From positions 83,226 to 138,266 of the forward strand of contig NZ_KB903813.1 in assembly GCF_000379825.1 (NCBI RefSeq): DNA of 55,041 nt, written 5' to 3'. The first letter of the stretch is position 1; each line of letters opens with the position of its first letter. This DNA comes from Longispora albida DSM 44784. Its GTDB lineage: Bacteria > Actinomycetota > Actinomycetes > Mycobacteriales > Micromonosporaceae. This document shows, one piece after another, positions 5,706 to 44,264 of this stretch. Position numbers and translations under genes: made by a program. Under the pieces are notes generated by a model that worked only from the letters and a program-made list of their open reading frames with translations, was not told where the DNA came from and ran no database searches.

Positions 5706-5802
5706 TGATGGACCTCATCGAGCAGAGCAGTGGGGGAGCGGTTAGCGCAACAGGCTGGGGCCGTCACTGTGGATCCGGCTCTTCTGCACGAAAGGGGAAT
5801 TC

Positions 5803-18977: not shown

Positions 18978-18979
18978 AG

Positions 18980-21105: not shown

Positions 21106-21121
21106 GGCTGATCGGCTCCGT

Positions 21122-21445: not shown

Positions 21446-21452
21446 GGTCGCT

Positions 21453-22172: not shown

Positions 22173-22177
22173 TGCTA

Positions 22178-24740: not shown

Positions 24741-24747
24741 CAGCGCA

Positions 24748-25113
24748 TCACCACGGCCGCTGAGTCCGGTCGATCACGTCAGCCGACGACGTATCCGCTC
24801 CGCCAATCTGCCCAAGTTCAGCCCTGGCGCTTTCGATCACGCGCTCAAGGCCGCGAGAGAAAGCCTCGGCGACCTTGCCCGCATCGGCCAGCCCCGGATT
24901 ACACCGGCCAGCAAGCTCCAGCGCGGACGTCAGCCCCGAAGCGCCGCGGAACTTACGGCCCTCAGCATCGAAGCGCCTGTTCCTCTTGCCCGTCTGCTCA
25001 TCAACCACTCTGGACACCGTCATCAGCCCCGGCAGCCGGTCGAACTCGCCCAGCAGCTCCAGGACCGCAGCCGGATCAACACTGATATCGCCGCGCCCGC
25101 CGCTTCCCGTCAT
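24748..25113 (-). CDS. First gene of the ESX-like operon, unknown
   Basis: 121 residues from ATG 25113 (MTGSGGRGDISVDPAAVLEL), chosen because the upstream extension is unlike coding. Helical, with a conserved-looking central RRFDAEGRKFRGASGLTSAL. Sequences of this size at the head of ESX satellite operons are usually small substrates or chaperones; I recognise no specific family. Confidence 0.6.
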   Translation of the reverse strand: MTGSGGRGDISVDPAAVLELLGEFDRLPGLMTVSRVVDEQTGKRNRRFDAEGRKFRGASGLTSALELAGRCNPGLADAGKVAEAFSRGLERVIESARAELGQIGGADTSSADVIDRTQRPW

Positions 25114-25252
25114 AACATGCCTCCCCGGCGCGAGCACACGATGCGTGCCCACAGCGCTGCTCACTGTATGAGGAACGTTCAACATGGACAACCGGCCACA
25201 ACCACGCCTCCGCAGCACAGCCAGGCCTGACAGCCTGCGGCCGATGCCGCGC

Positions 25253-27487: not shown

Positions 27488-30367
27488 GTGGTGGAGTTCA
27501 ATGTACTGGGGCCAGTGGAGGTGTGGCACGAAGGCACGTCGCTGCGCTTCTCGCGGCGGCAGCAGCGGCTGATTGTTGGCATTCTGGCCCTCCAAGCCAA
27601 CAATGTCGTTTCCCGCGAGCGGCTCATCGATCTGCTGTGGACCGACCAGCCTCCTCCGCAGGCTCGCGCCGTCGTGCACAGCCGGGTCTCTGAGATCCGC
27701 GGAGTCCTCGCCGACGCACTCGATTGTCACCCCGACGTGCAGCTGCTGACGCGAGGCAATGCGTACCTTCTGGAGGTCCCGCCGGAACTCGTTGACGTTC
27801 ACCGGTTCAGAACCTCAGCCGCGAGATGGCGGAACGCGGAGTCAGATGACGAAGCACGCAAAATCTTGAGGCAAGCACTCGGATTATGGCGTGGCCCGGT
27901 CCTCGGCGGAGGGCTATCCGAGGAAACCTATGCGGCACTGGCTCAGGGATCCGAGGCAGCACGGCTCACCGCTGCCGAGGACCTGTTCGATGTCGAGCTT
28001 CGCCTGGCGAACCATGTCCAGGTCGTGGACGAGATCACGGAACTAGCAGCTGCGAACCCTACTCGTGAGCGGTTAGCTGCCCAGATGATGCTCGCGATGC
28101 ATCGCTCGGGACGCACAGCTGATGCGCTCCTGGCGTATGACAGGTACCGCCGATGGTTGAGCGATCATCTCGGAGTCGATCCGGGCCAGGACATCCAGAG
28201 CCTGTACATGGCAATGCTGGACAACGAGTCGGCCCTGTTAGTACATCCTTCTCCGGTGCCCGGGCCAGCCGCCGGGCAGGTGACTGACCTGGCAGCTGGC
28301 GGCGCGGAGCTACTGCCAGCTGATTCCGGGGAGCGGTTCCATATTTCCGTACCCCGGATTCTGCCGCCTGGGATCGCTGACTTCACCGGCCGTGACACGG
28401 AGCTGGCGGAGGCGCGAAACCTGCTTACTAGTCCGCGGCGTACCGGCAGCCCCATTCTGGCCATCACAGGGCAGGCTGGCATCGGGAAAACGGCCTTCAC
28501 CATCAAAGTCGCGCACGAGGTCCGGGAACACTTCCCTGATGGGCAGCTCTACATGGACCTCCGTGGGTTCGATAGCAGCGACCCAGCTTCCCCGCACGAG
28601 GCACTCGGCCGGTTCCTCCGGGTCCTGGGGGTGGACGGCGACGCAGTTCCCTCCTCGCTCGAGGATCGCATCGACCTGTATCGGGACCTGCTGGATTCCC
28701 GGAAGGTCCTCGTTGTCCTGGACAATGCCCGAAGCGATGACCAGGTCGCCCCTCTGGTCCCCGGGGGCGATGCGTGCGGTGTCCTCGTCAGCAGCCGGGC
28801 ACGGCTGGGGTCCACCTTGGGGGCCAAGGTGATGAATCTGGATGTCCTAGACCCCGCTCAGTCACTTGCTCTTCTCTCGCGTATAGCCGGCCCGTCGCGG
28901 ATAGCAAGCGAGGCAGGGGAAACCGAAGCTCTCATCAGCCAGTGCGGCCAGCTTCCCCTAGCGCTGCGGATCGTCGGCGCGAAGCTGGCGGCCAAGCCCC
29001 ACTGGAGCGTCGCACGGCTGGTGGCGCTGCTCAATGACGGTCAACGGCAGCTTGACCTGCTCTCTCATGAGCATCTCGATGTGCGCGCCAGCATTGCGCT
29101 CAGCTATGAGGGGCTACGCCCAGACGTGCAGCGCCTGCTCCGCGGCCTCGGTGACATGGACAGCGCGGAGGTAACGGTCTGGGCGTCATCGGCGCTGCTC
29201 GGCGTTCGCAGTGAGGTAGCCGAGGACCTACTTGAGGAGCTTTTCGACGCTCAGCTTGTTGGGGTGGCCGGTTGTGACGCGACAGGCCATGCCCGCTACC
29301 GGATACACGACCTGGTACGCGCCTTCGCACTTGAACGGGCAGCCGTCGAGGATGACCTGCGGACGCTGGAAGAGGGTCGCATCCGAGTTCTGGGTGCCTG
29401 GCTGCATGTGGCCACAGCCGCGTACCGATCTATTCAGGGTGGCGACTACCAGAACATCAGAAGCGACGCACCCCGCTGGCCCGTCGAGGACGTTCTTGTG
29501 AACGCTCTGGTTGCGGAGCCATTTCGCTGGATCGAGGTGGAACGGCAGACCTTGGTCGCCCTGGCACGGCGAGCAGCGAGCGATGGTCACGCGACCGCCT
29601 GCTGGGAGCTGGCTTCGACGCTGACGCCTCTGCTTCACATGCGTCGTCACTATGACGAATGGCAGGCGATTCTCAGGTCAGCGCTGGACGCGGTGTCCCG
29701 CGCAGGTGACAATCGCGGCCGTGCCGCTCTGCTTTACCGGTCCGGCATGATCCATACGGATCATCAGGAGTTCGACCAGGCCTGGGCCGCCTTCCAGGAA
29801 GCAGCGGCGATCTTCGAAGAGGCCGGTGACAGGCATGGCTGGGCAACCGCGACCGTCTTCACCGCGATGGTGGACCGGCAGCGAGGAGAAAGCGACACCG
29901 CTCTGAGCCGCTACGAGAGCACTCTGCCGATACTTCGAGATTCCGGTGATATGGGTGGTCTTGCTTTTGCCCTCCGCAGCATCGGCCAGATCCACCTCTC
30001 CCGGCAGGAGTACGAGCTAGCCGACGACCACTTCGGGCAGGCAAAGACTCTTTATCAAGAGGCTGGCTCTGAGTACGGGCTCGCGACGGCCGAGTTCTGG
30101 CAGGGCATGCTGCGCGTGCGGCAAGAGGTTGCCGGCGAAGCACTCACCCTGTTCGAACGCGTCCTGAACAGGTGCAGGAAGCTAGGAGACCGGCCTGGTC
30201 AGGCCCAGTCGCTCCGGGGACTCGGCATCTGGCATCGCCGGTTCGGCGACAGCCAACAGGGAATGGCCCTCCTGCAGGAGGCGCTGAGCATCATCAAACA
30301 ACCGCGCCCCACTGTGCTGGAAGCCCATATCCGGCAGACGATCGCTGACTTCAGCCAGCCCCAATGA
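27488..30367 (+). CDS. SARP/AfsR-type transcriptional activator with NB-ARC and TPR
   Basis: 959 residues from GTG 27488. Order: OmpR-like winged helix (about 1-95), bacterial transcriptional activation (BTAD) domain (about 96-250, ending DHLGVDPGQDIQSLYMAML), NB-ARC NTPase with Walker A GQAGIGKT (328-335) and Walker B VLVVLDNARSDDQ, and C-terminal TPR-like helices (from about 700). Family members are pathway-specific activators of antibiotic genes (AfsR/RedD/ActII-ORF4 type), binding direct heptamer repeats upstream of targets. Position between the PKS and peptide operons makes it the likely local activator of either, but no binding sites could be assigned. Confidence 0.92.
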   Translation: MVEFNVLGPVEVWHEGTSLRFSRRQQRLIVGILALQANNVVSRERLIDLLWTDQPPPQARAVVHSRVSEIRGVLADALDCHPDVQLLTRGNAYLLEVPPELVDVHRFRTSAARWRNAESDDEARKILRQALGLWRGPVLGGGLSEETYAALAQGSEAARLTAAEDLFDVELRLANHVQVVDEITELAAANPTRERLAAQMMLAMHRSGRTADALLAYDRYRRWLSDHLGVDPGQDIQSLYMAMLDNESALLVHPSPVPGPAAGQVTDLAAGGAELLPADSGERFHISVPRILPPGIADFTGRDTELAEARNLLTSPRRTGSPILAITGQAGIGKTAFTIKVAHEVREHFPDGQLYMDLRGFDSSDPASPHEALGRFLRVLGVDGDAVPSSLEDRIDLYRDLLDSRKVLVVLDNARSDDQVAPLVPGGDACGVLVSSRARLGSTLGAKVMNLDVLDPAQSLALLSRIAGPSRIASEAGETEALISQCGQLPLALRIVGAKLAAKPHWSVARLVALLNDGQRQLDLLSHEHLDVRASIALSYEGLRPDVQRLLRGLGDMDSAEVTVWASSALLGVRSEVAEDLLEELFDAQLVGVAGCDATGHARYRIHDLVRAFALERAAVEDDLRTLEEGRIRVLGAWLHVATAAYRSIQGGDYQNIRSDAPRWPVEDVLVNALVAEPFRWIEVERQTLVALARRAASDGHATACWELASTLTPLLHMRRHYDEWQAILRSALDAVSRAGDNRGRAALLYRSGMIHTDHQEFDQAWAAFQEAAAIFEEAGDRHGWATATVFTAMVDRQRGESDTALSRYESTLPILRDSGDMGGLAFALRSIGQIHLSRQEYELADDHFGQAKTLYQEAGSEYGLATAEFWQGMLRVRQEVAGEALTLFERVLNRCRKLGDRPGQAQSLRGLGIWHRRFGDSQQGMALLQEALSIIKQPRPTVLEAHIRQTIADFSQPQ

Positions 30368-30470: not shown

Positions 30471-31736
30471 TCACACCGCCGGCGGTGCCAGTTCCGGTTT
30501 CGGATCCTCGCTTCTGGAGGCGATGCGTGCCACAGGCCAGGCCGCTCCCAGGTATGCGGCAGCCGTTGCTCCCAGCGCTATCCACAGAGGAACAGCTTCC
30601 AGCGCGGCGCCGAAGGTCAGATTGCCCAGGGGAAGGGCGACCGAGACAGCCGCCATGATCGCACCGAGCACCCGGCCCCGAACATGAGGCACTGTGTTTT
30701 CGTTGACGATCTGGATCATGATCGGCAGGAACGGCCCCTGGGCGATGCCCGCCAGCATCATGCCGATCAGGGCAGCGGGTATTCCTGGCGCTGCGGCAAG
30801 CAGCAAGTAGGCGCATCCAGTAGCTGTCAGGCAACCGGCCAGAACCCACCGGATAGACAACCTGGGCAGGAAAAGCGTGTACAGCACGAGCCCAGCCAGG
30901 GATCCGGCCGTGTAAATTCCCACCACCCAGGCAAGAACAGTCGATGGCGCGCCGACACGGCTGAGGTACACGGGCGCGATGACACTGATGCGCGGAGCGT
31001 CGAACGCGCTCAGCACGAAGGCGGTGATGGTCATCAGCCGGACGGCCCGGATGCTCCACACCGCCTGCAGACCCTCTGCAAGATCGCGCATGTACGAGCT
31101 CGACGCCTGCTGGCCCGACATTGAGGGACGAGCACCCGCCACGCCCAGTATGAGGGCGGCCGAGATGACGAAGCTGGCTACGTCGAGCCAGATAACAGCG
31201 GTATTCCCCAGGCTGGCCAGGAGTGCGACCGCTAGCGGACCGCCGATGACCATGCCCAGCCGGGGAAAGATCCAGTACACCGAGCCCGCTCTGGCCTGAC
31301 CCACTCCAGCTGTGGTCGCGGCAGCACCCAGAAGCATCTGTCTGCAGGTCAGGCCCGGCGAGGCGGCAAGTGCAGCAGCGGCACCGACAACCGCCAGAGT
31401 CCAGATCTCCATCTCGCCTAGCGAGGCAGTGATCGGGATGGCCGCGAGTACCGCCCCGGCAAGAAGACTTGACCAGATGGCCATCCTGCGGGGACCAACA
31501 CGATCGATCAAGGGGCCGGACAGGAACATCCCCACCACGACAGCTGCGGTCTCGGCTGCACTGACTACACCAAGAGCCAGGGGCGAGCGGGTAACGGACA
31601 AGACAATCAGCGGTATCGCGACCAGCGTCATGGTGCTGCCGATCATGTTCACCAGCGCTGATGCGAGTAGCAGCAAGAACGGTCCTCTGCGGACCGCCGT
31701 TTCGCTGGCGAGAGGCTGGCTCTGATCAAGAGTCAC
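30471..31736 (-). CDS. MFS exporter
   Basis: 421 residues with about 12 hydrophobic segments. The loop-2/3 motif region is DRVGPRRMAIWSS (MFS motif A-like). No sugar- or drug-specific signature recognised; it resembles MFS exporters adjoining natural product genes. Its ATG 31736 overlaps the acyltransferase stop by 11 nt, so it is the last gene of the peptide operon and the likely exporter or self-resistance pump of its product. Confidence 0.88.
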   Translation of the reverse strand: MTLDQSQPLASETAVRRGPFLLLLASALVNMIGSTMTLVAIPLIVLSVTRSPLALGVVSAAETAAVVVGMFLSGPLIDRVGPRRMAIWSSLLAGAVLAAIPITASLGEMEIWTLAVVGAAAALAASPGLTCRQMLLGAAATTAGVGQARAGSVYWIFPRLGMVIGGPLAVALLASLGNTAVIWLDVASFVISAALILGVAGARPSMSGQQASSSYMRDLAEGLQAVWSIRAVRLMTITAFVLSAFDAPRISVIAPVYLSRVGAPSTVLAWVVGIYTAGSLAGLVLYTLFLPRLSIRWVLAGCLTATGCAYLLLAAAPGIPAALIGMMLAGIAQGPFLPIMIQIVNENTVPHVRGRVLGAIMAAVSVALPLGNLTFGAALEAVPLWIALGATAAAYLGAAWPVARIASRSEDPKPELAPPAV

Positions 31737-32669: not shown

Positions 32670-33779
32670 TTATCCCTTCTCGGCGGTGGCACAGCCACGA
32701 CAACATTGGACGCGCTCGAACGTCCGCCACTGGATGGTGAGGGTCTGCGCGTCGAGTTCCCCAACGCGGTTCGCTAGAAGTGGCTCTCCAAGTCCGCCGA
32801 GGACCCGGAGCGCATCCCATGCCTGCAAGTTCGCAATGACAGCAGCCATCGGAGAAAAGGCACCCGCCCTGCGCCTGTCGCCCGCTATGTGTTCAAGCTG
32901 GTACCTGGGCTGTTCGTAGTAGGAGGCCTTATAGCACTCCCAGCAGGCGGTGGCTCCAGGAACGATTGTCGTGCCCACGAACCCGATGTGACCTGTATAG
33001 CCGCCGCCTGCGACGAAGGGAATACCCTGCGGCATGCAGGCTGCCGAGACCCAGTCCGTCGTCATATGAACGCTTGGTTCGTCGCTGCAGTTGATGACAA
33101 GGTCGGAACCAGAAAAGATGCCAGGCCCAGTTTCGGCGGAGAACGTCTCCAGGGCGACATCCACCCTGACCCTGCCGCCCGTCAGCGTCTGGATCTTATC
33201 GCGTACAACCAACGCTTTAGGCTGCCCGATGTCGGCCGGGCCGTACAACACCTGTCGCGAGAGATTGCCCGCAGATACTGTGTCTGGGTCAATCACGAGC
33301 ACCTGGCCGACCCCCGTCATGGCCAGGGACTGGATGACCCACGATCCCATGCCACCCGCGCCAATCACTGTGACTTTGCCCTGACGCAGCCTCGACTGTA
33401 CGGACCGTGCGGCAGCTGCTGTCCCGGCAAAGTCACGGAAGAAGCTGACCTGCTTCTCGTACACCGCCGTCTCGACATCCCCTGCAGGGGGGACTTCCGC
33501 GCGGGCCGCGACGTCAAGTGCATCTTCGGCCTCAAGGGTGTCCAAGATGGCTTCGAGACGGCTGGCCGTGAAGTCAGGATGCTTGACCTGGACGCCTTGC
33601 AAGACATCTTCCCAAGGCCGGGAGTCACCAAGTAACCTGACCGCTTCCAGCGCTTCGCCCTCTACCTCGTAGAGACAATGACGCCCGGTGCTGAGAAAGA
33701 CAATGTGAAGCAGGCCGTCGCTGTCTTGGCTTGCGGTTACTCCCGAGCGCAAGCCAACTACTGATCCAGCCCGGCTCAT
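32670..33779 (-). CDS. E1/ThiF-like adenylating enzyme with PqqD-like (RRE) N-terminus
   Basis: 369 residues. ATG 33779 (MSRAGSVVGLRSGVTASQDS) is chosen because the RRE-like domain begins there. Residues about 20-90 (LLHIVFLSTGRHCLYEVEG, then EALEAVRLLG... and ASRLEAILDTLEAEDALDV) look like the PqqD winged-helix leader-peptide recognition element. The E1 domain follows: GAGGMG at 140-145, VIDPDTVSAGNLSRQVLYGP, and four zinc-type Cys (CWEC 279-282; CC and GC near 359-363). Such enzymes adenylate a peptide C-terminal carboxylate (MccB in microcin C) or a ubiquitin-like sulfur carrier. Two short peptides upstream fit a RiPP role. Confidence 0.87.
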   Translation of the reverse strand: MSRAGSVVGLRSGVTASQDSDGLLHIVFLSTGRHCLYEVEGEALEAVRLLGDSRPWEDVLQGVQVKHPDFTASRLEAILDTLEAEDALDVAARAEVPPAGDVETAVYEKQVSFFRDFAGTAAAARSVQSRLRQGKVTVIGAGGMGSWVIQSLAMTGVGQVLVIDPDTVSAGNLSRQVLYGPADIGQPKALVVRDKIQTLTGGRVRVDVALETFSAETGPGIFSGSDLVINCSDEPSVHMTTDWVSAACMPQGIPFVAGGGYTGHIGFVGTTIVPGATACWECYKASYYEQPRYQLEHIAGDRRRAGAFSPMAAVIANLQAWDALRVLGGLGEPLLANRVGELDAQTLTIQWRTFERVQCCRGCATAEKG

Positions 33780-33799
33780 CCGAGGCCCCCGACGATCAT
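33776..33799 (-). CDS. Heptapeptide ORF translationally coupled to the E1 gene
   Basis: ATG ATC GTC GGG GGC CTC GGA TGA encodes MIVGGLG. GGAGGG (33807-33812) sits 7 nt upstream, a good Shine-Dalgarno, and the TGA overlaps the E1 ATG as ATGA. It could be a leader peptide for coupling or a third, very short precursor. MccA of microcin C is also a heptapeptide next to an E1, but that ends in Asn; this ends in Gly. Too short to prove from sequence. Confidence 0.4.
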   Translation of the reverse strand: MIVGGLG

Positions 33800-33858
33800 T
33801 CTGATTCCCTCCGTCAGCCAATCTGGAACTCGGTATCGCCGACCACGACATGAAAGGG

Positions 33859-33887
33859 TGCGGCACCCACCTTCGGTGGATGCCGCA
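33859..33887 (-). terminator. Attenuator hairpin between peptide genes and E1
   Basis: 13-bp stem (minus strand TGCGGCATCCACC, GAA loop, GGTGGGTGCCGCA with one U-G pair) between the second peptide stop and the E1 gene. Such a hairpin would make the precursor transcript more abundant than the enzyme transcript, as in many RiPP operons. Confidence 0.6.
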
Positions 33888-33899
33888 CAGGCCCGCGCA

Positions 33900-33959
33900 T
33901 TACGCGCAAGAACCGTCCTTGCTGTCGTGCCGGATAACGACGTCAGCGACCTTCTGCAT
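33900..33959 (-). CDS. Second RiPP-type precursor peptide, 19 aa
   Basis: MQKVADVVIRHDSKDGSCA, TAA stop. GGGGAGGTG sits 7 nt before ATG 33959. It aligns without gaps to the upstream 19-mer: M, K3, V4, V8, I9, S13 and the whole C-terminus GSCA identical, with conservative exchanges E/D6, I/V7 and E/D12. Duplication plus length identity argues that both are real and selected. Residues 1-13 may be leader and the terminal 4-6 residues core; the invariant Cys18 and C-terminal Ala19 are the likely modification points of the E1 enzyme. Confidence 0.78.
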   Translation of the reverse strand: MQKVADVVIRHDSKDGSCA

Positions 33960-34024
33960 GCCAAACACCTCCCCTCGGGTTACCTCAGAGGTTGAAGCGG
34001 GCAGCGAGCGCCGCTCAACACCGA

Positions 34025-34084
34025 CTACGCGCACGAGCCACCCGAGCTCTCCTGGGCAATCACGATCTCCTTGACCTTGGTCAT
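34025..34084 (-). CDS. First RiPP-type precursor peptide, 19 aa
   Basis: MTKVKEIVIAQESSGGSCA, TAG stop; missed by standard gene callers because it is 60 nt. AAGGAGGTG precedes ATG 34084 by 6 nt, the strongest Shine-Dalgarno in the region. It is first in a minus-strand operon with a second peptide, E1, acyltransferase and MFS. Apart from the shared GSCA end it carries a GG that in sulfur-carrier proteins precedes a removable tail, but 19 residues is far too short for a ubiquitin-like carrier. Confidence 0.8.
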   Translation of the reverse strand: MTKVKEIVIAQESSGGSCA

Positions 34085-34734
34085 GGCACACCTCCTTCCT
34101 TGAATAGGAACCCATTTTCAGGGCTCTTTCAGCGGTCATACGGAGCACCGGGGAAGGTTTCCCGTTTCCCGCTAAGACCATGCTGCCCGCAGCGTCTCAC
34201 CGCGACCTGACCGCAGGCTAACCACTACTGGTTCGCAGTGATTGCTAGAAGCCCAGTTCGCCAGCCTCTTGCCGGCGTCCTTTCGGAGAGTTCCGGGCCC
34301 CAGCGATAGTTTCTCGGCGATAGGGAAGGACCTGACCATCGGCGGGGCGGCCGGCGGATGTTAGCTGCTGGATGATGTTGTCGGGCGTGCTGCGGCGCTT
34401 CGCGTTGTTCCTGGAGGAGGGTGGGGCCTGCCGCACACCAGCACCGCGCTCGCTGAGAGCTGCATGCGGCTCACAGCCGCGATGTGCGCCACGGACGCCG
34501 ACGCGACCGTGACGGCCGCCCACTACTGCATCGGCCATGACGTCCTACCGCCGATCGGCCGGATGGGGGATATGGGCCTGGCCATCGGAACGTGCCGCTG
34601 AGCCCCGAGAAGGGCATGCTGATCCTGGACGTGGTGGGCGACCGGATCATGTCCGTCGAGGTGCTCGATCGGGAGGCAATGCGCGACAGCCGCTAGAGCA
34701 TCACCAGGCCGGCGATCATGGACCACGCTGGCGG
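34085..34734. promoter_or_regulatory. Peptide operon promoter region and coding-like debris
   Basis: 650 bp without a supported gene. The 34085-34240 part is upstream of the first precursor and should hold its promoter; a short inverted repeat AACCA-4 nt-TGGTT lies at about 34220-34233. On the plus strand, a 34-codon ORF at 34592-34696 (VPLSPEKGMLILDVVGDRI then MSVEVLDREAMRDSR) resembles the end of a DUF2283-like protein; other frames before it also look like decayed coding. Possibly the left edge of the integrative element. Confidence 0.4.
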
Positions 34735-36221: not shown

Positions 36222-37745
36222 TCAGGCCGCGCGCCGCTGGCGGGGGATGAGTCTGGCGGTCTGCTCGGCGCGTTCGCGTTCGGTTTCCTGGAGGATGCTG
36301 GTGTAGATGTCGCCGGTGGTCGCTACGTTGGCGTGCCCGAGGAGTTCCTGGATCTCTTTCAGGTCAGCGCCGGCGGCCTTGGCGAACGTCGCCGCCGCAT
36401 GGCGGCCGTCGTGGATGCCGACGGGTGGCAGGCCGGAGTCGCGCACGTAGCGGTCCCAGCGTTCGGAAACCAGGTCCGGGTTCCAGGCTCGCCCGTCGGG
36501 GCGGCGGAAGAACAGGTCCACGTTGGCGTGCTGGACCGTTCCGTCGGGGGAGGGGATCCGCATTCTGATGGTCTTCGGCCATGCGGGTCCGGCGGCGAGT
36601 TTCTGGGCGGAGCGCCGTACCCAGTAGGCCTGCAGGTCGGCGCAGGTTTCGGTGTCGAGGCCGAAGGTCCGGTCCCCTGCCTGGGTCTTGACTGGCTTGT
36701 AGACGAGTTCGCTTCCGGCGTGCAGCGCGATCTGGCAGGTGATGGTCGCGGTGCGCTCGGTACGGTGGTCGAGCTGGTCGCAGGTGATGCCGATCGCCTC
36801 TCCCCGGCGTGGCCCGCGCCGCAGGATGAGGGCGAACACCGGGTACAGCTCCGGATCCCTCACCTCGACGTAGTCGAGGAACTCCCCGGCCTGTGCCGGG
36901 GTCCACACCATCACCGAGCTGGGGATGTGCCCGGTCTCCTGCCACGCCTTGACCCTGGGCGCGGTCCAGACCCGCGCGACGGGTTTCTCGGCTGCGGGGA
37001 GTTCGACGTGGGCTGCGGGGTTGTGCTCGATGAGCCGGTCCTTGCGCATCGCGTCGTTGAGCGCGGTCCGCAGCGTCGCACGGATCCGGTGCATCGAGGT
37101 CGCCGCCACGGTCTTCTTCCCCCGCACGCTGGCCCGGATCATGGGGTCGGTGTGCTGGCGGGCGGCGGTGATCTCGGTGTTGCGTTTGACGATCGCGGCG
37201 AACATGGCCTGGATGTGCGCCCTGGAGAGTTTGTCCAGGGCGATGTCCCCGAGGTTGGGGAGGAAGTAGTTGCGGATGTGCCCTGCGTAGTTGATCTTCG
37301 TTTTCTCGTCGATCTGGCGTTCGCCGATCCACTGGGTGAGGTATTCGCCGACGGTGATGCTGATCGCGGCGGGTACTCCGGCGCGGAGGCGGCGGGCGAT
37401 GGCGTTGCGGTCGGGGAGTGGCTGGCCGGGGCGTACTCCTTTGAGGAGGGTGGCGATCTCATCGAGGAGTGCGGGGTCGCCGCTGGCGAGGCGGAGCAGG
37501 TCACGGGCGTGGTCGCGTTCGTCGCGCGCGGCGTTCTTCGAGTTGTCGGTGGCGGCGGGTTCGCGTTTGAGCTGGCGGCGTTTGCCGAGGAGGGTTTTGG
37601 GGAGTTCGAGCTGGTAGGCCCAGCGGCCGTGCTGGGGGTGCCAGTTGCCGTCGGCGCGGCGCAGGTCGGGGCATTGGGCGCCGAGGCGTTTGCCGGCGGG
37701 GGTTTTGCAGGTGCACCACTTGAAGATGGAGCCTTCGGAAGCCAT
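36222..37745 (-). CDS. int: Tyrosine-type site-specific integrase
   Basis: 507 residues. N-terminal Cys-rich segment (FKWCTCKTPAGKRLGAQCPD) and arm-type domain, SAM-like core-binding domain (about 130-230), then the catalytic domain: RRGPRRGEAIG (Arg I), HDGRHAAATFA (HxxR), LGHANVATTGDIY with nucleophile Tyr481. Complete and of normal length. It catalyses integration and excision of the element. Excisionase lies directly upstream, so int/xis/rep order matches actinomycete integrative elements (pSAM2-like). Confidence 0.93.
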   Translation of the reverse strand: MASEGSIFKWCTCKTPAGKRLGAQCPDLRRADGNWHPQHGRWAYQLELPKTLLGKRRQLKREPAATDNSKNAARDERDHARDLLRLASGDPALLDEIATLLKGVRPGQPLPDRNAIARRLRAGVPAAISITVGEYLTQWIGERQIDEKTKINYAGHIRNYFLPNLGDIALDKLSRAHIQAMFAAIVKRNTEITAARQHTDPMIRASVRGKKTVAATSMHRIRATLRTALNDAMRKDRLIEHNPAAHVELPAAEKPVARVWTAPRVKAWQETGHIPSSVMVWTPAQAGEFLDYVEVRDPELYPVFALILRRGPRRGEAIGITCDQLDHRTERTATITCQIALHAGSELVYKPVKTQAGDRTFGLDTETCADLQAYWVRRSAQKLAAGPAWPKTIRMRIPSPDGTVQHANVDLFFRRPDGRAWNPDLVSERWDRYVRDSGLPPVGIHDGRHAAATFAKAAGADLKEIQELLGHANVATTGDIYTSILQETERERAEQTARLIPRQRRAA

Positions 37746-37835
37746 GAGGGGTTGTTCGCTTTCGGGTTGTGCGGGGTGCCCGCCGCTGGGCGGGTGTCTG
37801 ATCGGTGTGCAGTGACGCTCGGCTCCGCGCCCGGA

Positions 37836-38099
37836 TCAAGTCGCCGTGCCGGATTCGGCAGCTGGCGGGGTGGTGTGGCGGGCGGCGGCGAGGATGGGTG
37901 CGACGGGTACTTTCCAGCGGCGTCCGGCGCGCAGGACTGGGACGGGGAATTCGCCTGCGGCGGCGAGGGCGTAGGCGTGGCTTTGGGACATGCCGAAGAT
38001 CTGGCCTGCGATTTGCAGGGTGGTGAACGCGCCGAGCGCGGCGATGCTGTCGGCGGTCCAGACGACGGCGGGCTGGGTGCTGGTGGCGGGGTTGTTCAT
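37836..38099 (-). CDS. xis: Excisionase / MerR-like HTH protein
   Basis: 87 residues with one small HTH domain: LQIAGQIFGMSQSHAYALAA then GEFPVPVLRAGRRWKVPVAP, the helix-turn-helix-17 excisionase pattern. It sits 90 nt upstream of the integrase on the same strand and would direct recombination toward excision. Confidence 0.85.
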   Translation of the reverse strand: MNNPATSTQPAVVWTADSIAALGAFTTLQIAGQIFGMSQSHAYALAAAGEFPVPVLRAGRRWKVPVAPILAAARHTTPPAAESGTAT

Positions 38100-38117
38100 G
38101 AGGGGTCCTGGAACGAG

Positions 38118-38163
38118 ATGAAGGGGGCCGTCCCGCGACGCGTCGCGGGACGGCCCCCTTCAT
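38118..38163 (-). terminator. 46-bp perfect palindrome between rep and xis
   Basis: Two 23-bp arms (ATGAAGGGGGCCGTCCCGCG...) meet with no loop. It lies between the replication gene end (38224) and the excisionase start (38099), so it probably separates their transcripts; a recombination or replication role is possible. Confidence 0.6.
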
Positions 38164-38223
38164 GGGGAGGGCGGGGCTATGGAGTTGTGGGTGCCCAGCC
38201 CCGGTGAGGGGCGGGGCTGGGGC

Positions 38224-39204
38224 TCAGGTGCTGGTGGTGTCCCTGCAGGTTTCCCAGTTGTCGAATACGGCTTCGTCGTACTCGCGTTCGGGGTCCCAGA
38301 TGGGGTGGCCGGGTAGCGGCGGCAGGTTCTGGGAGGGCTTGGCGCCCCACCAGGGGTGATCCGTGCGGTACGTGCCGGGCAGGGCGCTGAAGGGGATGAG
38401 CTGGCCTGCGGGGCTGGTGCGCCATTGCGGGATGCCGGGGCCTGTGGGGTGGCTGGTGGTGGTGGCGATGGTCAGGCCGGTGAGGTCGCAGGCGGCCAGG
38501 TTGTTCCAGAGCTGGTCTTCGGCTGCCTGGCTGGCAGCGGGGATGAGGACGGTGCTGGTGCCGGTCGCTGCGGCGAGTTCCTGGTATCCGCGGATAACGG
38601 CGGGCAGGGCGGCGGGTGCGGGGGCTGGGTGGTGGAGCCAGAAACCGATGTGGGTTCCGTGGCTGAAGTAGCTTCCGTATTCCAGCGGTCCCTTGCCCGC
38701 AGCTGCGGGTAGTGCGGCGCAGGAGCGCGGTCCCCACCAGAACCGCAGGTCGGTGAACGTGCCGGGGCGGGAGCCTTCGGCGAGCCGGGAGAAGAACTCC
38801 CCGATGGCCAGGGCGTGGTTGTTGCCTGGGTCTGCGGCCTGGTTCGTGACGAGCCGGGCGGCGTCGCCGTCTGCGGGGACGGCCTGGTCGTCCCACAGGG
38901 CGGTGAGCTGCCGGCCGCGCACGCCGAGGGTCCAGCACCGCTGGCGGGTCCCGGCGGGCGTGACGTGGTCGAAGCTGGCAGTGATTTGCCGGCTTCGCAG
39001 GACCCGCAGGCGCCTTCCGGCGTCGCGGGCCGTGGTGCGGAAGCCGAAGCGGACGAGCTGGCTGACGGTCAGCACGCGGTGCTCGTGGAGCAGGTCGAAG
39101 AGCCACCTGTCGGAGGCCATCAGCGAGCAGTTGACGTCGGCCAGCTCGTGGAGGAGCAGGCTGGAGGGTTGGGGGTTCGTGCTGTGGGTGCCGGTGCTGT
39201 GCAA
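38224..39204 (-). CDS. Replication-relaxation family protein
   Basis: 326 residues from TTG 39204, supported by GAAAGG 7 nt upstream; another TTG at 39345 has no Shine-Dalgarno. Replic_Relax pattern: LHELADVNCSLMASDRWLFD, EHRVLTVSQLVRFGF winged helix, GRRLRVLRSRQITASF, HALAIGEFFSRL. This family is the plasmid/element replication protein set of actinomycetes. Same strand and family as the upstream gene, so they likely act together at the iteron region. Confidence 0.8.
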   Translation of the reverse strand: MHSTGTHSTNPQPSSLLLHELADVNCSLMASDRWLFDLLHEHRVLTVSQLVRFGFRTTARDAGRRLRVLRSRQITASFDHVTPAGTRQRCWTLGVRGRQLTALWDDQAVPADGDAARLVTNQAADPGNNHALAIGEFFSRLAEGSRPGTFTDLRFWWGPRSCAALPAAAGKGPLEYGSYFSHGTHIGFWLHHPAPAPAALPAVIRGYQELAAATGTSTVLIPAASQAAEDQLWNNLAACDLTGLTIATTTSHPTGPGIPQWRTSPAGQLIPFSALPGTYRTDHPWWGAKPSQNLPPLPGHPIWDPEREYDEAVFDNWETCRDTTST

Positions 39205-39439
39205 GGTGGTGCCTTTCGGGATGGGTGTGCCCGCCGTGTGCGGCTGGGCGAGAGGGCTGGGTGAAGCAACGGCACCCGGGCCAAGTCCGGTGGCCTGGGT
39301 GCCGTGTGGCCGCAGGAGGCGGCCAGCCTTGTCCCCAGCGGTCAAGCTGGGGAGGGCGATCAGGAAAGCCCCGTGTGCCGGTTCTGGCCGGGACCACGGG
39401 GCTTAAAAGGAGGCGGGCCTCGGCGCCCGCGACCGGCAG

Positions 39440-41050
39440 TCAGGTTTGTGCGCCGAGGCGGGCGCGGATGACGTGCCAGTGATCGGCGGTGGTGCGGGCC
39501 TGGTGGCGGCTGGTGTGGCTGATCAGCTCACTGTGGCAGGTGCTGCACGGTGCGGGTTCCCGCTCGTGCGGGTAGCGCAGTGAGCAGCCGGCGCAGATGA
39601 GCAGATGCTCATCGTCGTAGGCAGCAGCGATGGCTTCGCGGTCGGCGCGGTGCCGGCGCAGGACGCCCATGTTCCGCAGAGTGGCCTCAACGTGCAGGGC
39701 ACGCTGTTCTTCGTGGGCTTGCAGGAGCTGCTTCTGGACCTCGCCGATCGCGGGGCCGCCGGTGGTGGTGAGAACTGTGGCCTGGCTTTCGGTGAGGATG
39801 TTCCCGGCGCTCAGTTCCCGGGCTGCCGCAGCCAGGCTGGCCTGCTGCGGGTCGTGCTCGATGGCGGTGGCGAGCTGGGTGGCTTGTGCGGTCCAGATCC
39901 GGGCGTGCTCGGCGGACAGCAGCTCCCTCAGGGCGGCTGTCTCGGCGGTGCCGGGGCCGGGGGTGGTGTGCCAGGCGACCAGGGCCTCGGCGACGTCGGG
40001 GTACTCGCGGAGCACCCCTGCGGGGCCACCGAGATGGCTGGTGATGGCGGCGTCTTGCTCATCAAGCCGGCTGATGGCGGAGAGCGCGTCGCGGACGGCG
40101 TAGTACCGGTCGGCCGCGGCCTTGTCGGCGGCTTGTTCCCGTACGTCGGTGTCCTGGTCGTGCTGGGCGGTGGCGATCTGGGTGAGGAGCCCGGTGAGGG
40201 TGGCGGGTTCGTCGGCGATGTCGCCGTGCAGCCAGACCGCGTCGCGGAGGGCTGTGGCGGGGGTGCGGACGGTGCCGGTGGCGGCGATGTGCATGACGGC
40301 CGGGTAGTAAGTACGGCCGAGGATGGTGAACGGCTTGACGGTGCCGGCGCGGCGGCGGGCAGTGTCGGTGAGCTTGGCTGCGGGCCGCATGAAGTTTTCC
40401 GCCCGTACGCGGGAGGTGGTGAACAGCAGCATCGGCGGGCAGTGCGGCAGCACGCCGCGCCAGCCGCGTTCGGCCGCGTACAGCAGGTACCGTTCGGCTT
40501 TGACGCGCAGCTGGGTCTGGGTCATGGTGCCCATGTCGATCTCGGCGATCGCACACCCCGTCAGCCCGCCACCAAGATCGACGGTGAACATGGCGTCGGG
40601 GGTGAGCTGCCCGGTGCCGCCGTGCGGGCGTTCCCACCGCAGCCACCCGTCCCGGTCGGTACGCCACTCCAGCAGCCGCGGGCCGCCCGTCTCGCTGGCG
40701 GTGAGCATGCTGACCCACAGCTCGGTGATGGCCAGGGCGTGCGGGACTTCGGATGCGGCCCACGTGCCGGTGACGCCGCGGGCGGTCGACGCGGCCAGCC
40801 GCGCACCGGCCGGGGTCACCCACCAGTGCTGCGGTGCGGTACCGGCCCGCCGGCCGAGCCGGTCGTGGCGGACGAGGTGGTGGTCTTCGAGGCGCTGCAG
40901 GCACCGCAAGGTACTGCGGTCCAGGGCGCCGGTGGCCCGTGCCAGCTGCTGGGTGGTGGCGAGGCGCTGCTGCAGGAGGATTTCCAGCAGCCGCATTTCC
41001 GGGCCGCCATCGCTGCGGAGCCGGGTGAGGAAGGAACGGCCTGTAGGCAT
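39440..41050 (-). CDS. Replication-relaxation family protein (larger)
   Basis: 536 residues; GGAG lies 7 nt before ATG 41050. Winged-helix start (LLEILLQQRLATTQQLARAT, LQRLEDHHLVRHDRLGRRAG, HWWVTPAGARLAAS), then EVPHALAITELWVSML and an Asp/Glu-containing core (PDAMFTVDLGGGLTGCAIAE) of Replic_Relax proteins, a helical middle, and a C-terminal zinc ribbon (CAGC and CSTC). It should bind the origin or recruit replication proteins. The iteron-like region lies directly upstream. Confidence 0.82.
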   Translation of the reverse strand: MPTGRSFLTRLRSDGGPEMRLLEILLQQRLATTQQLARATGALDRSTLRCLQRLEDHHLVRHDRLGRRAGTAPQHWWVTPAGARLAASTARGVTGTWAASEVPHALAITELWVSMLTASETGGPRLLEWRTDRDGWLRWERPHGGTGQLTPDAMFTVDLGGGLTGCAIAEIDMGTMTQTQLRVKAERYLLYAAERGWRGVLPHCPPMLLFTTSRVRAENFMRPAAKLTDTARRRAGTVKPFTILGRTYYPAVMHIAATGTVRTPATALRDAVWLHGDIADEPATLTGLLTQIATAQHDQDTDVREQAADKAAADRYYAVRDALSAISRLDEQDAAITSHLGGPAGVLREYPDVAEALVAWHTTPGPGTAETAALRELLSAEHARIWTAQATQLATAIEHDPQQASLAAAARELSAGNILTESQATVLTTTGGPAIGEVQKQLLQAHEEQRALHVEATLRNMGVLRRHRADREAIAAAYDDEHLLICAGCSLRYPHEREPAPCSTCHSELISHTSRHQARTTADHWHVIRARLGAQT

Positions 41051-41171
41051 GAAGAACTCCAGGATTGGTGTGAGGGTTGTATGTGTGCCGTGGGGGGAGA
41101 AGAAGTCAGACTGCTGAAGCAGTCAGTCGCCGGCAGGACCAGAACGGGTAATCGCGCGGCGTGCTGCGCGG

Positions 41172-41230
41172 ACGCCCCGCAGAAGGTGTCCGTTTGGGTC
41201 CAGGCCCAACGGACACCTTCTGCGGGGCGT
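41172..41230. repeat. Long hairpin, 26-bp arms
   Basis: Arms (ACGCCCCGCAGAAGGTGTCC... and complement) match over 26 bp with a single-base bulge and a 6-nt loop. It lies 120 bp upstream of the larger replication gene, between it and the iteron-like cluster, so it may be an origin stem-loop or a terminator. Confidence 0.6.
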
Positions 41231-41382
41231 GACCAGCCGCTGAAGCCGGGATACCCCGGCTGCCCGGTGGCGTGACGGCGGCAAGAGGCAAGGGCCCGGA
41301 AGCCGGCAGCTCCGGGGACGATCACCTGCCCTGGGCTGAGGACGGCTCCGGCGTGAACGCATCCAGCACAACAAGCGGTCAC

Positions 41383-41916
41383 TGTTAGAGCTGGCGCACA
41401 AGCCCCGCTCTCACAAGCTGTCTCAAGCTCTCACAGCACCAGCCCCGTTCGGGTCAGACCGGGCAGCCGCGGCCGGCCTGCCGTGCATGACCGGCGCGGT
41501 CGTGCGTTCAGGGCACAGAGCCGGCAGGGCGTTCCTGCAACCCCTAACCCGGGTTTTTCAGATCCGGAAGACACCTTCGAATCTGAAACCATTCTGAAAT
41601 AGCCTGTAAGCAATCTGAAACCGCAGGTCAGAGGCCTGCTGTGACATCAGGCTCTGCAGCCCGTCACGCGCCGTGGCGGGCCGGGCCAGCCTGTGCTTTC
41701 CCTGCATCTGGACATACGGGCTCTGTGAGAGCTGGCGAACAGGCTCTGCTCTCACAAGCTCTCACAGCAGCATCCCCTGCTCTAACAGCGCAGCTCAAGC
41801 CACTGAATCCATCGACATACCTCGAATAACGGCAATTCCGGGCATGCGGTGCTGTGAGAGCAGGAAACGGGAACGCGCCGGCCTCTCACAGCCGCAGGCC
41901 GGGCGCGCTGTGAGAG
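41383..41916. repeat. Iteron-like cluster, putative replication origin
   Basis: Eight exact copies of CTCTCACA or its complement TGTGAGAG at 41408, 41428, 41724, 41749, 41759, 41853, 41883 and 41909, in both orientations and often flanked by AGCT, plus degenerate copies at 41383 and 41780. A second set (AATCTGAAACC at 41580 and 41612, with related ATTCTGAAAT and TTCAGAT) lies between. The region has no gene and adjoins the replication genes. I infer an origin or Rep binding array. Confidence 0.6.
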
Positions 41917-42302
41917 CTGAGAGACGGCCGGGGAGCGCCTGTGAAGCCACGCCGGCTCGGCCGCATGCCCGAAACGGGAAAGGGTGCGGGAGCCGCCCAG
42001 CCGGCCAAGCCAGCACGCGAAGCCTGCCGGGCGGCGCGCCTGCGGTGAGGTCGGAGCGCCGGTGAAGACCGGCGCGGCGGGACGGCAATAGTCCGCCTGG
42101 GACGCGCGGCACCGCCGGTTTCACTCCGGCTCGCGGGACGCCAGGTGGCGGGTTTCTGTGTCGCGGGCGGCTGGTTGATCATCCTGATCGAGGTCCCGGC
42201 AGCCCGGTTTCTGCCCGCCGGGCGAGTCAAAATCGGCGCCGTATTCGGCTGACCGCCGCCCGGCAACGGGGCATCACAGGTGTAGCCAGCGAACCGGTTC
42301 CG
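41917..42302. other. Non-coding stretch right of the iteron cluster
   Basis: About 385 bp of GC-rich sequence with no ORF showing coding character and no feature beyond short GC hairpins. Confidence 0.4.
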
Positions 42303-42320
42303 TGACCGTCGTGACGGTCA
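42303..42320. terminator. Short palindrome overlapping the stop of the coiled-coil gene
   Basis: TGACCGTC-GT-GACGGTCA, 8-bp arms, including the TGA (42318-42320) of the minus-strand gene. Weak terminator or protein-binding site. Confidence 0.35.
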
Positions 42321-42830
42321 GCCGGCACCCGGCGCGCGGCCGATGATGACGGAAAGCTCGCCGCGATAGGTCGCCCCAAGCTTGGTCACGACGCCCTCGA
42401 CGGGGCCTGGCCCGTGCTTCATCTGGCTGATCCAGTTCTCCGGAAGCAGCACCCGGTCGCCGACTTCCAGGCGGCCTAGGCCGGGCCAGCGGTAGGCGTA
42501 CCGGCCGACTTCGACGACCTGATCCCCGCCGTACTCGTAATACCTGGACGCCTCATCGAGCTGCCGTTCAAGGTCAGCCACGCGCCGTTCCAGACGCTCT
42601 GCCCGCATGTTCTGGAGGCCTTCGCTGCTGCGGCTGGCGGCCTGAAAGCCCTCATTCCAGCCGCGCTGATACGCCTCCGCCAGCGTCCGGTCCTGCTCAG
42701 AAGCGTGCCTGGAACAGGCCAGATCCGCCCCATGCAGCCGCACCTTGCACGGGCTTCCGGAACGGGTCGCGCGCCCGCACGTACGCCCCTCCGCACGCTC
42801 CATCTGGCGGCTCCATCGCTCCAGTTCCAA
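42318..42830 (-). CDS. Cys/His N-terminal, coiled-coil hypothetical protein
   Basis: 170 residues. N-terminal CGRATRSGSPCKVRLHGADL followed by ACSRH gives a C...C...C...H arrangement that could bind zinc, like the CxxxTRxGxxC motif of small actinomycete plasmid proteins. A coiled coil (ERLERRVADLERQLDEASRY) and a beta-rich C-terminus (LEVGDRVLLPENW...VEGVVTKLG, an SH3-like barrel) follow. Divergent from the next gene. Function unknown. Confidence 0.62.
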   Translation of the reverse strand: MELERWSRQMERAEGRTCGRATRSGSPCKVRLHGADLACSRHASEQDRTLAEAYQRGWNEGFQAASRSSEGLQNMRAERLERRVADLERQLDEASRYYEYGGDQVVEVGRYAYRWPGLGRLEVGDRVLLPENWISQMKHGPGPVEGVVTKLGATYRGELSVIIGRAPGAG

Positions 42831-43036
42831 ATCAGACAGTCAACGCTAACCGCCCGCCCGGCAGCCGCGCTACCCCTGCCAAGCACCCGGTCAGCTTCGA
42901 TCGGAGGCCACCTGCCAGCACCCCGGCAGACCCCTTCCTGTGATCCTGAGGGCTGGGATCAGGCGTTCTCAGCTCTCCGGAGTGCTCCAGGTTTCACAAT
43001 GATCAGCAAGGGGATCGCGGGGAGCGGGAGGGTGTC

Positions 43037-43321
43037 ATGGCGCGGCAACCGGATCTGGCGGCCAAGGTCAAGCAGCTCGTCAAAGCCGAGAACGCACGCA
43101 GGGAACGCCTCGTCGCTGATCTCGGACGCCAGCGCGAGGCTCACCGCGTTTCCGCAGCAAAAACCGACGAATATGCCGCTGCGTACAACGCCACCTACGA
43201 GACCGCGCTGCAGGCATGGGGCGCGCAGCTGCTAAAGGAATTCGGCTTCGGGCCACTGAAGCAGCCCTCTGGTACCACCGCGCCCCGGCGGCGTTCTGGT
43301 GCCGGCCGGGAGCCGGGCTGA
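43037..43321 (+). CDS. Small basic coiled-coil protein
   Basis: 94 residues; GGGAGGG before ATG 43037 is a good Shine-Dalgarno. Lys/Arg-rich helical N-terminus (LAAKVKQLVKAENARRERLV) and a basic Pro/Arg tail. Possibly a DNA-associated accessory of the element; not assigned to a family. Confidence 0.6.
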   Translation: MARQPDLAAKVKQLVKAENARRERLVADLGRQREAHRVSAAKTDEYAAAYNATYETALQAWGAQLLKEFGFGPLKQPSGTTAPRRRSGAGREPG

Positions 43322-43348
43322 CCCCTTCCGGGGCTGCTCCAGTGGCTG

Positions 43349-44080
43349 TTACTGGCCGAAGCGGCGGCGCCTTCGGGCGTAGACGGCGAGCGTGTCGGTG
43401 AAGTCCTGATAGCTGAAGGCCGGGCCATGTGACGGCCGGAAGCAGAACTCGGCTTCGGCAGTCTGCCAGGGCATGAAGCCTGACAGGCGGTGCTCTCCGC
43501 CGGTGCGGATGAGGAAGCCGGGAGCGGGCTGGCCCGCTGTGGTGAGCTCGCGGCTGATGCCGCCGACGTGCAGGTTCCGCACTATGTCGCTGATGCTGGC
43601 CCCTGCGGCTGCTTGGCGGGCGAGGAGGGCGCGGACGGCTTCGGTGATCTCGTCGTGGCCGCTGTAGGCGATCAGCACGTTCACGATCGGGCCCCGATCC
43701 TGCCGGTCAGCCGCTTCGGCGGCGGTCGTCCGCAGTCGTCTGGCGGTGCCGGTGGGCAGTAGGTGGAACGAGCGAGCGAGGCGCAGCCGCCACGGCTGGT
43801 GGGGCCCGGCGAGACCGGTCACGAGGTCTTCGATGATGCTGAGAAGAGGCAGCAGTTCGGCTGCGGGGCGGTGCAGATTGCGCGCTGACAGCAGGTAGAA
43901 CGCGACGACCTCGATACCCGCCTGAGCGCACCATCCGATCACTTCCGGGACCTTGCCCGCACCCGCCCGGTGGCCGTCGTGCGGGTCGGCAAACCCCTGC
44001 CGGGTTGCCCACCGGCGGTTGCCGTCTACGAGAACACCGAGATGGTGCGGCACGAGTGGTGGCTGTTCCTGGGCTGTCAT
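43349..44080 (-). CDS. cis-Prenyltransferase (undecaprenyl diphosphate synthase family)
   Basis: 243 residues from ATG 44080, preceded by GGGGGA. Signature motifs are VLVDGNRRWATRQGF, FYLLSARNLHRPAAEL, and near the C-terminus FLIRTGGEHRLSGFMPWQTA, so catalytic Asp18/19 and the Arg/Glu set are present. The family extends allylic diphosphates with isopentenyl diphosphate to cis-polyprenyl diphosphates. It is not in a cell-wall operon; likely a second copy in accessory DNA, either bypassing inhibition of lipid carrier synthesis or serving a specialised prenyl product. Confidence 0.88.
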   Translation of the reverse strand: MTAQEQPPLVPHHLGVLVDGNRRWATRQGFADPHDGHRAGAGKVPEVIGWCAQAGIEVVAFYLLSARNLHRPAAELLPLLSIIEDLVTGLAGPHQPWRLRLARSFHLLPTGTARRLRTTAAEAADRQDRGPIVNVLIAYSGHDEITEAVRALLARQAAAGASISDIVRNLHVGGISRELTTAGQPAPGFLIRTGGEHRLSGFMPWQTAEAEFCFRPSHGPAFSYQDFTDTLAVYARRRRRFGQ

Positions 44081-44144
44081 GGCGTCCCCCGATCGCCTCA
44101 GCGGCAGTGCCACCGGCGATGCCGGCACCGTACCTGCATGATCA

Positions 44145-44156
44145 ATGACCGGTCAT
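44145..44156. promoter_or_regulatory. 12-bp palindrome between divergent genes
   Basis: ATGACCGGTCAT, perfect, in the 180-bp gap between the divergent prenyltransferase and nuclease-fusion genes. Possible operator; no regulator identified. Confidence 0.3.
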
Positions 44157-44264
44157 GCTAGCTATAGCGGCCGTGCTTGGGCTCCTTCCCGGGTCGGTTG
44201 CACCGCTCGCGGCGGATCGACGCTGGGGCCGGCGTGCGGGGTGGCTGGGGTGCAGACTGTCGGG

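Follow-up and report, generated by a model that had tools for sequence, protein, structure and literature searches.

What do two very short tandem reading frames at the head of a small operon in Longispora albida DSM 44784 encode, and what do the enzymes encoded behind them do to the products? The window, i.e., the whole stretch of 55,041 nucleotides that was analysed, contains on its minus strand two 19-residue peptide ORFs (peptides 1 and 2), followed by three larger genes that abut or overlap one another and encode an MccB-like E1 enzyme, an LpxL-family acyltransferase and an MFS transporter. The peptides are very likely precursors of a RiPP with an E1-driven modification, the chemistry of which is inferred, and the operon probably gives rise to a small ribosomal peptide that carries both a lipid and an E1-made modification; there are no data on product, expression or activity.

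The E1/ThiF-like adenylating enzyme (32670–33779, minus strand, 369 residues), with an N-terminal RRE-like domain, was assigned from Pfam, homology and a structural model. The acyltransferase gene of the LpxL/PatA family (PF03279; 31726–32664, minus strand) most likely starts at GTG 32664 and shares an 11-base overlap with the MFS transporter gene (30471–31736, minus strand). The original prediction described these genes as encoding a PqqD-like-plus-ThiF enzyme, an LpxL-like acyltransferase and an exporter. Pfam bears this out for ThiF (PF00899, E-value 3.4e-44), the lipid A acyltransferase family (PF03279, 9.3e-15) and MFS_1 (PF07690, 1.3e-22), but gives no PqqD match at the N-terminus of E1. 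In the AlphaFold model of E1 (pLDDT 81.6) this N-terminal region consists of strands and three helices, an arrangement which we take to fit the RRE fold. No gene for an ACP or a peptidase was found within the window operon. Convergent with the operon lies a gene for a SARP-type regulator with BTAD, NB-ARC and TPR domains (27488–30367, plus strand), for which a link to the operon has not been shown.

Peptide 1, MTKVKEIVIAQESSGGSCA, is encoded at 34025–34084 with its ATG at 34084, and peptide 2, MQKVADVVIRHDSKDGSCA, at 33900–33959 with its ATG at 33959, both on the minus strand. Each is preceded on that strand by a Shine-Dalgarno motif (AAGGAGGTG at 34089–34097 and GGGGAGGTG, read directly from the sequence, at 33966–33974); of the former 9-mer alone, a shuffled window is expected to contain 0.46 copies. 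The rechecked translations are identical at 10/19 residues, in agreement with the description of the pair as tandem, Shine-Dalgarno-led 19-mers with ten identical positions. At four of the ten common residues the codons differ, and the nucleotide identity is 38/60, which suggests, on the evidence of the sequence, that the amino acids of the two peptides are under selection. With ORFs this short and in the absence of translation data, there is room for the alternative that they arose by chance or serve as regulatory leaders instead of encoding precursors. In 40 Markov-simulated windows of 55 kb, however, the best identity among adjacent equal-length pairs of Shine-Dalgarno-led 15–25-residue ORFs (Met excluded) is 18%, as compared with 50% (9/18) for peptides 1 and 2, and none of the simulated windows contains a GSCA-ended ORF of this type. 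In the real window no minus-strand pair of this kind surpasses the two peptides; no plus-strand pair shows any identity. With the synonymous codon changes and the conservation in Lactiplantibacillus plantarum described below also standing against it, this alternative is scarcely credible, and chance ORFs are ruled out by the simulation and the L. plantarum conservation.

Counterparts of the operon are found on plasmids of L. plantarum. A tblastn search of 72,556 plasmids with the window E1 yields 50 records at E≤1e-20, the top three being from L. plantarum, and the L. plantarum E1 as query matches 11 records, three of which cover at least 80% of the query. A full-length E1 is present in three L. 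plantarum records; two of them encode upstream of it the peptide MEKVSEVKVLAHEEKNGSC, to which peptide 1 is homologous, and these two contain all four parts: peptide, E1, acyltransferase and MFS transporter. One of them (L011) carries a tandem peptide pair with MKKVSEVKVLAHEEKNGSC as the second copy, the other (L012) a single copy; the third record (L006) has an IS3 element at the peptide site and no acyltransferase match. The PLSDB tables for these plasmids list a ThiF family adenylyltransferase, a hypothetical protein and an MFS transporter, and leave the peptides unlisted. The similarity between the window and L. plantarum MFS proteins is weak (20% identity over 404 columns, E 7e-8). Scoring of 7,437 ORFs of 12–45 residues, taken from 276,487 bases of the relatives' loci with the two window loci excluded, places L. 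plantarum ORFs at all of the top ten positions, with scores of 50 to 54 against the window peptides (start variants and one record counted twice are included); between peptide 2 and the L. plantarum peptide the score is 54. The next-best unrelated ORF scores 29, and the other GSC-ended ORFs in this set, all on a single Lactobacillaceae replicon (L014), score 9 or less.

Absence of these peptides, or of their Gly-Ser-Cys-Ala end, from related loci would have refuted the original prediction. Homologous GSC-ended 19-mers do occur beside the E1, acyltransferase and MFS genes of the L. plantarum plasmids. The supposedly invariant end is retained as far as Gly-Ser-Cys, in the one other lineage found to have it, but the final Ala is absent there, and the common end is therefore GSC and not GSCA.

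Truncated E1 remnants were also noticed in the Lactobacillaceae replicons L013, L014, L015, L021 and L037, some of them beside IS genes. In the three L. plantarum records that were opened (L013, L014 and L015) of eight such plasmid records, an MFS gene is still located downstream of the truncated E1, in L013 as a shorter gene behind an IS element. Retention of the MFS gene is weak evidence for immunity to a toxic peptide; a signalling role of the product is also possible.

The window and L. plantarum E1 enzymes are 34% identical over 355 columns, and the L. plantarum homologue implies ATG 33779 as the most likely, though only predicted, start of the window enzyme. The window E1, the L. plantarum E1 and an MccB taken from a locus that carries the MccA heptapeptide gene share residues Arg175, Lys188 and Asp233 as well as the Cys pairs 279/282 and 360/363, all of which are also invariant in a seven-row E1 alignment. 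The window enzyme thus has all of the ATP/Mg residues (Arg, Lys and Asp) and the four Cys of the microcin C E1. Its R–K and K–D spacings of 13 and 45 are the same as those between the ATP/Mg residues 167, 180 and 225 quoted for EnfB in the available part of the source (PMC12250964); the pairing of the individual residues is our inference. The invariance of these residues and the EnfB-like spacings make it a well-supported prediction that the E1 is an active adenylating enzyme. MccB is the top match of E1 in the PDB by sequence (E 5e-27), and in a Foldseek search with the E1 model MccB chains occupy ranks 1–24, followed at rank 25 by PaaA (5ff5). The alignments with MccB span the whole model, with TM-scores near 0.6 and an rmsd near 12, from which it is inferred that the two domains are placed differently in the two enzymes.

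The organization of the operon also recalls that of microcin C, which likewise combines an E1 containing an N-terminal peptide-binding domain, ATP-site residues and paired Cys residues with a Shine-Dalgarno-led mini-gene, a hairpin before the E1 gene and an MFS gene. In the gap between the peptides and E1 of the window lies a 14-bp hairpin (33858–33888, minus strand), a presumed attenuator or terminator followed by only a short T-run, with an MFE of −29.6 kcal/mol (z −2.7; 3/200 shuffles are equally stable). Hairpins between the precursor and the downstream genes are present in 3/3 lineages, the others being L. plantarum (−30.4 kcal/mol, z −8.2) and the third locus L035 described below (−17.9 kcal/mol, without a shuffle test), and the accessible text of PMC6495379 states that in the E. 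coli mcc region a terminator separates mccA from mccB. A further Shine-Dalgarno-led ORF of seven codons, MIVGGLG (33776–33799, minus strand), has a stop that overlaps the E1 start (ATGA). Translational coupling of this ORF to E1 is possible; no similar ORF was seen at the corresponding place in L. plantarum.

It is therefore conceivable that the E1 acts as in microcin C, adenylating the C-terminal α-carboxylate of the peptide and leaving a nucleotide or another group on it, so that a Trojan-horse antibiotic results. Besides the position of MccB as the closest enzyme of solved structure, in sequence as in fold, and the match of the MFS gene, short gene and hairpin to mccA-mccB-mccC, this interpretation can draw on the Asn-ended peptides with a similar leader in Nonomuraea-type relatives and on the ability of MccB to hand the C-terminal adenylate to thiols, as given in the available portion of PMC13255007. 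It is decidedly unlikely, however, in view of the length of the GSC peptides (19 residues), their Ala or Cys ends and a distance from C-terminus to Cys that is not constant between the lineages; a published survey, in the part that is available, gives a C-terminal Asn for all MccA-like precursors (PMC6495379). Membership of the microcin C family proper is ruled out by the absence of a C-terminal Asn and by a length of 19 residues in place of the heptapeptide of the main clade, and the seven-codon ORF before E1 ends in Gly, not Asn. In addition, the window differs from microcin C in having tandem precursors that end in GSC(A) and an extra LpxL-family acyltransferase, and its operon lacks the methyltransferase, GNAT and S66 peptidase genes of the E. 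coli mcc region.

The acyltransferase appears to be closely tied to the peptides. Searched against the 72,556 plasmids at E≤1e-6, the window enzyme matches 2 records, both of them the peptide-bearing L. plantarum plasmids, where its counterpart, a divergent 'hypothetical protein', is encoded some 300 bases away from the first peptide. The L. plantarum enzyme as query retrieves only the same two L. plantarum plasmids, and in the genome of the window it has the window gene as its sole match at E≤0.01 (E 8e-18). Since the plasmid and reciprocal searches match only peptide-bearing loci, it is inferred from the sequences that the genes for peptide, E1, acyltransferase and exporter travel as a set. 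The identity between the window and L. plantarum acyltransferases is low, at 22.5%. The window enzyme scores 55.0 bits against PF03279 (gathering threshold 22.3), while the L. plantarum and L035 enzymes, at 21.7 and 21.9, remain just below it. LpxL-family enzymes have known roles in the synthesis of lipid A and glycolipids, and their catalytic motif is HX4(D/E). By eye, the motif in the present acyltransferases reads HX4Q or HX4M, and their activity could consequently differ.

That the acyltransferase acts on the peptide is given a slight preference only, as lipidation is inferred without product data. PF03279 enzymes act on lipids, and the window enzyme and its relatives might instead modify membrane lipids for self-protection, leaving the peptide product unlipidated. 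The divergent acyltransferase gene in L. plantarum and the apparently altered catalytic motif would be consistent with such a role, but the only plasmid-borne relatives found adjoin GSC peptides and, in L035, an ACP gene directly precedes E1, which makes self-protection by lipid modification the rather unlikely explanation.

The L035 locus, from a Lactobacillaceae member, has the gene order HTH regulator, Shine-Dalgarno-led short hydrophobic ORF, 41-residue peptide, hairpin with T-run, ACP, E1, PF03279-like and MFS-like genes, the last of these named by a weak match to the window MFS protein and by eye. Its acyltransferase is weakly similar to that of the window (E 2e-6 over 124 columns). The peptide ends in QSCNNNC, cannot be aligned with the GSC peptides and has no acidic residue six positions before its last Cys; L035 is accordingly counted as having the same architecture without belonging to the same family as the GSC loci. 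As this operon holds both genes, the acyltransferase is linked to an ACP, and acyl-ACP is suggested as the acyl donor. The position of the ACP gene directly before E1 also leaves a different reading possible, in which E1 links the peptide to the ACP by a thioester bond and the peptide itself is then handed by the acyltransferase to a lipid or another acceptor, but this is considered very improbable. As a separate observation, the HTH regulator and the short hydrophobic ORF MVMVIVVLPVLSN at 1892–2831 of L035, ahead of the E1-acyltransferase operon, look by eye like an Rgg/SHP-type signalling pair.

For the lipidated, E1-modified peptide that is preferred here, the following route is proposed. 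The precursors would be made in excess, with the hairpin behind the peptides limiting read-through, as at mccA-mccB. The RRE-like domain of E1 would bind the conserved leader half MxKVx[ED][VI]x[VI]; a short precursor with a conserved leader beside the enzyme, as in RRE-ThiF (TLAT) RiPPs, is present. The adenylation domain would then activate a carboxylate with ATP, a conserved Cys would capture it, and the carboxylate would most likely be that of the acidic residue six positions before the Cys, closing a GrcB-like thiolactone. With acyl-ACP as donor, the acyltransferase would attach a fatty acyl group to the peptide, the invariant Ser of GSC and Lys3 being possible sites, and the MFS protein would export the product and may give immunity.

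The ring is the more tentative part of this scheme. The spacing between acid and Cys is six in 3/3 GSC peptide types (Glu12 and Asp12 in the window, Glu13 in L. plantarum), whereas the C-terminal carboxylate belongs to the Cys itself in L. plantarum but to the residue that follows it in the window. A side-chain-to-Cys thiolactone is preferred because the former register is constant and the latter is not, and is held as a possibility without confidence. Known RRE-ThiF RiPP enzymes share ATP activation of a carboxylate and differ in the nucleophile, to judge from the available parts of PMC12150305 and PMC12250964. The accessible text of the latter reports a Glu35-Cys39 thiolactone for GrcB and gives the activated carboxylate in two ways, as C-terminal and as the Glu35 side chain (PMC12250964). 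EnfB and IndF, which are RRE-ThiF enzymes too, activate the C-terminal carboxylate as far as the available sources go, and in an analogous reaction the α-carboxylate of the GSC peptides could be attacked by Ser, Lys or a backbone NH, giving a C-terminal macrocycle or imide in which the Cys is free or acylated. The Ser and Cys of GSC are both invariant, as this would allow, but the lineages differ in their last residue and in how far it lies from GSC, and the GSC peptides lack a Trp/Ile-rich end, and such a product is regarded as unlikely.

The original prediction, in naming microcin C with its C-terminal Asn heptapeptide as the known E1-based RiPP, was right that the present core is different, but its list was incomplete: pantocin A and the GRC-type, enterofaecin and indolylamide (IndF) RiPPs have also been published, according to the available parts of PMC12250964 and PMC12150305. 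The GRC-type system of Streptococcus (GrcA/GrcB) likewise uses an RRE-ThiF enzyme, and its precursor resembles the L. plantarum peptides in its Cys end and upstream acid (Glu35-Cys39). Unlike the GRC-type system, which has two radical SAM enzymes, the window operon has none and no standalone RRE, its larger genes being E1, PF03279 and MFS; its precursors contain 19 instead of 39 residues, the acid–Cys spacing is six instead of four, and an acyltransferase is present. In the pantocin A system (PaaP/PaaA) an E1 of related fold (5ff5) acts on a short peptide, and the pantocin core is Glu-Glu. The L. plantarum peptide contains Glu-Glu, the window peptides do not, and the precursors are otherwise different. 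The enterofaecin (EnfA/EnfB) and indolylamide (IndA/IndF) systems also employ RRE-ThiF enzymes on short precursors, but their WWIVI and NWYFI cores are absent from the window peptides. Lipidated lanthipeptides and selidamides resemble the proposed product in carrying a fatty acyl group on a ribosomal peptide; the accessible part of PMC13060382 describes GNAT acyltransferases acting with lanthipeptide synthetases, neither of which is found among the operon genes, where an LpxL-family enzyme is combined with an E1.

In what was searched, the E1-acyltransferase-GSC peptide set is rare. Searches in the order find E1 at E≤1e-35 in 4/397 genomes and searches in the class at E≤1e-40 in 2/394, Longispora's own included in both; only the best four candidates per genome were scored and weaker sites could have been missed. 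None of the examined flanks of the other four E1 matches contains a GSC-ended ORF. The acyltransferase is found at E≤1e-15 in 1/121 genomes of the family, again Longispora's own, and the one further genome of the genus gives no E1 hit at E≤1e-30; the order, class and family searches thus reveal no group of close relatives around the taxon of the window itself. Among 397 Lactobacillaceae genomes, 3 match the L. plantarum E1 at E≤1e-40, two of them with fragments. The L035 acyltransferase matches only L035 itself among 395 Lactobacillales genomes and none of the 72,556 plasmids. Two pattern scans of genome contigs gave no relatives and nine relatives, respectively, none with a GSC peptide, although members could have been missed by the two narrow seed patterns used in each, and viral contigs yielded one remote ThiF only. 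In the E1 tree, one row of which (L024) is a partial sequence, a weakly supported fork (36/69) separates the window enzyme from that of L. plantarum, and by the distance table the window E1 is equally near to the L. plantarum enzyme and to the Nonomuraea E1s with Asn-ended peptides. Its placement is unresolved.

The GSC peptides are found in only two lineages, and their spread is inferred to cross phyla, between the actinobacterial window and Lactiplantibacillus. The sequence features that point to an actinobacterium are the G+C content, an AfsR-type regulator and a polyprenyl synthase with Nonomuraea as its best match in the plasmid collection and 41/47 matching records from actinobacterial genera; a 16S search of the genome gave no match. 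An integrase gene (36222–37745) and two replication-relaxation genes (38224–41050) adjoin the operon and the L. plantarum copies reside on plasmids, which makes spread by horizontal transfer likely. The region 36222–46292, which contains these genes and an Mrr-like nuclease gene, is perhaps the edge of an integrative element; no tRNA genes were found in the window. At 13802–19789 the window also contains a small type II PKS/FAS-like set, consisting of an ACP, a ketosynthase, a second ketosynthase-like protein, a ketoreductase-like SDR, an FAD amine-oxidase-like protein and an SDR. This set could be a source of an unusual acyl-ACP, but a link to the operon is a mere guess because a WXG100-like gene, a subtilase gene, a DUF885 gene and the SARP regulator gene lie in between. 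Genes resembling type VII secretion genes by eye (WXG100-like, YbaB-like and subtilase) are located at 20302–25218.

Several other RRE-E1 loci encountered in the searches encode short peptides of different types. Four of five Nonomuraea-type loci, L020 being the one in which none was seen, encode a Shine-Dalgarno-led 28-residue peptide M[DE]R.P.MVKVEE[VG]PLRVGAVTASNSHGN with a leader that resembles the MxKVxEV of the window and an Asn end; these peptides are candidates for long microcin C-like precursors. Candidate sites are present in L007, L018, L019 and L023 (about 5627–5722) and, on the minus strand of a reversed locus, in L036 (4005–4043), and an ORF ending in SNSAGN occurs in G519. Two Patescibacteria contigs (L016, 340–3382; L017, 3374–6411) combine an RRE-E1 with a Shine-Dalgarno-led peptide ending in RRRRA or HRPRA and, by eye, with an arginase/agmatinase-like gene and a C39-peptidase-like gene. 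In Elusimicrobiota, Shine-Dalgarno-led 17-residue peptides, MKLKKLAVVALNDNKCI (L022, 5786–5839) and MKLKKLAVVALNDIKMI (L024, 5800–5853), directly precede the RRE-E1, and a Moraxella plasmid (L008, 3719–8070) carries a pair of neighbouring ThiF genes together with an ATP-binding cassette gene.

The proposal of a candidate new E1-based RiPP family is supported by the homologous peptides, E1 and acyltransferase, and by the MFS gene, on the L. plantarum plasmids. The GSC-peptide set looks like an undescribed family within a known kind, the E1 (ThiF-like) RiPPs; that it represents a RiPP class found in two phyla, with E1 cyclising the ribosomal peptide and an LpxL-family enzyme acylating it, stands somewhat short of an even chance. 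In a non-exhaustive search of the open-access literature by title and the start of the abstract, which did not cover a survey of ThiF-like RiPPs of lactic acid bacteria, no paper was found on a GSC precursor or on E1 RiPP clusters with an LpxL-family acyltransferase, and the combination of an E1 with a lipid A-family acyltransferase was thus not encountered there. From a single adenylate intermediate, E1 (ThiF-like) enzymes arrive at widely different linkages, and with several precursor types new chemistry came to light each time. The present system is small, with four parts, and resides partly on plasmids of L. plantarum, an organism of food fermentation; with so few parts and with 19-residue substrates that can be synthesised, its chemistry is directly testable.
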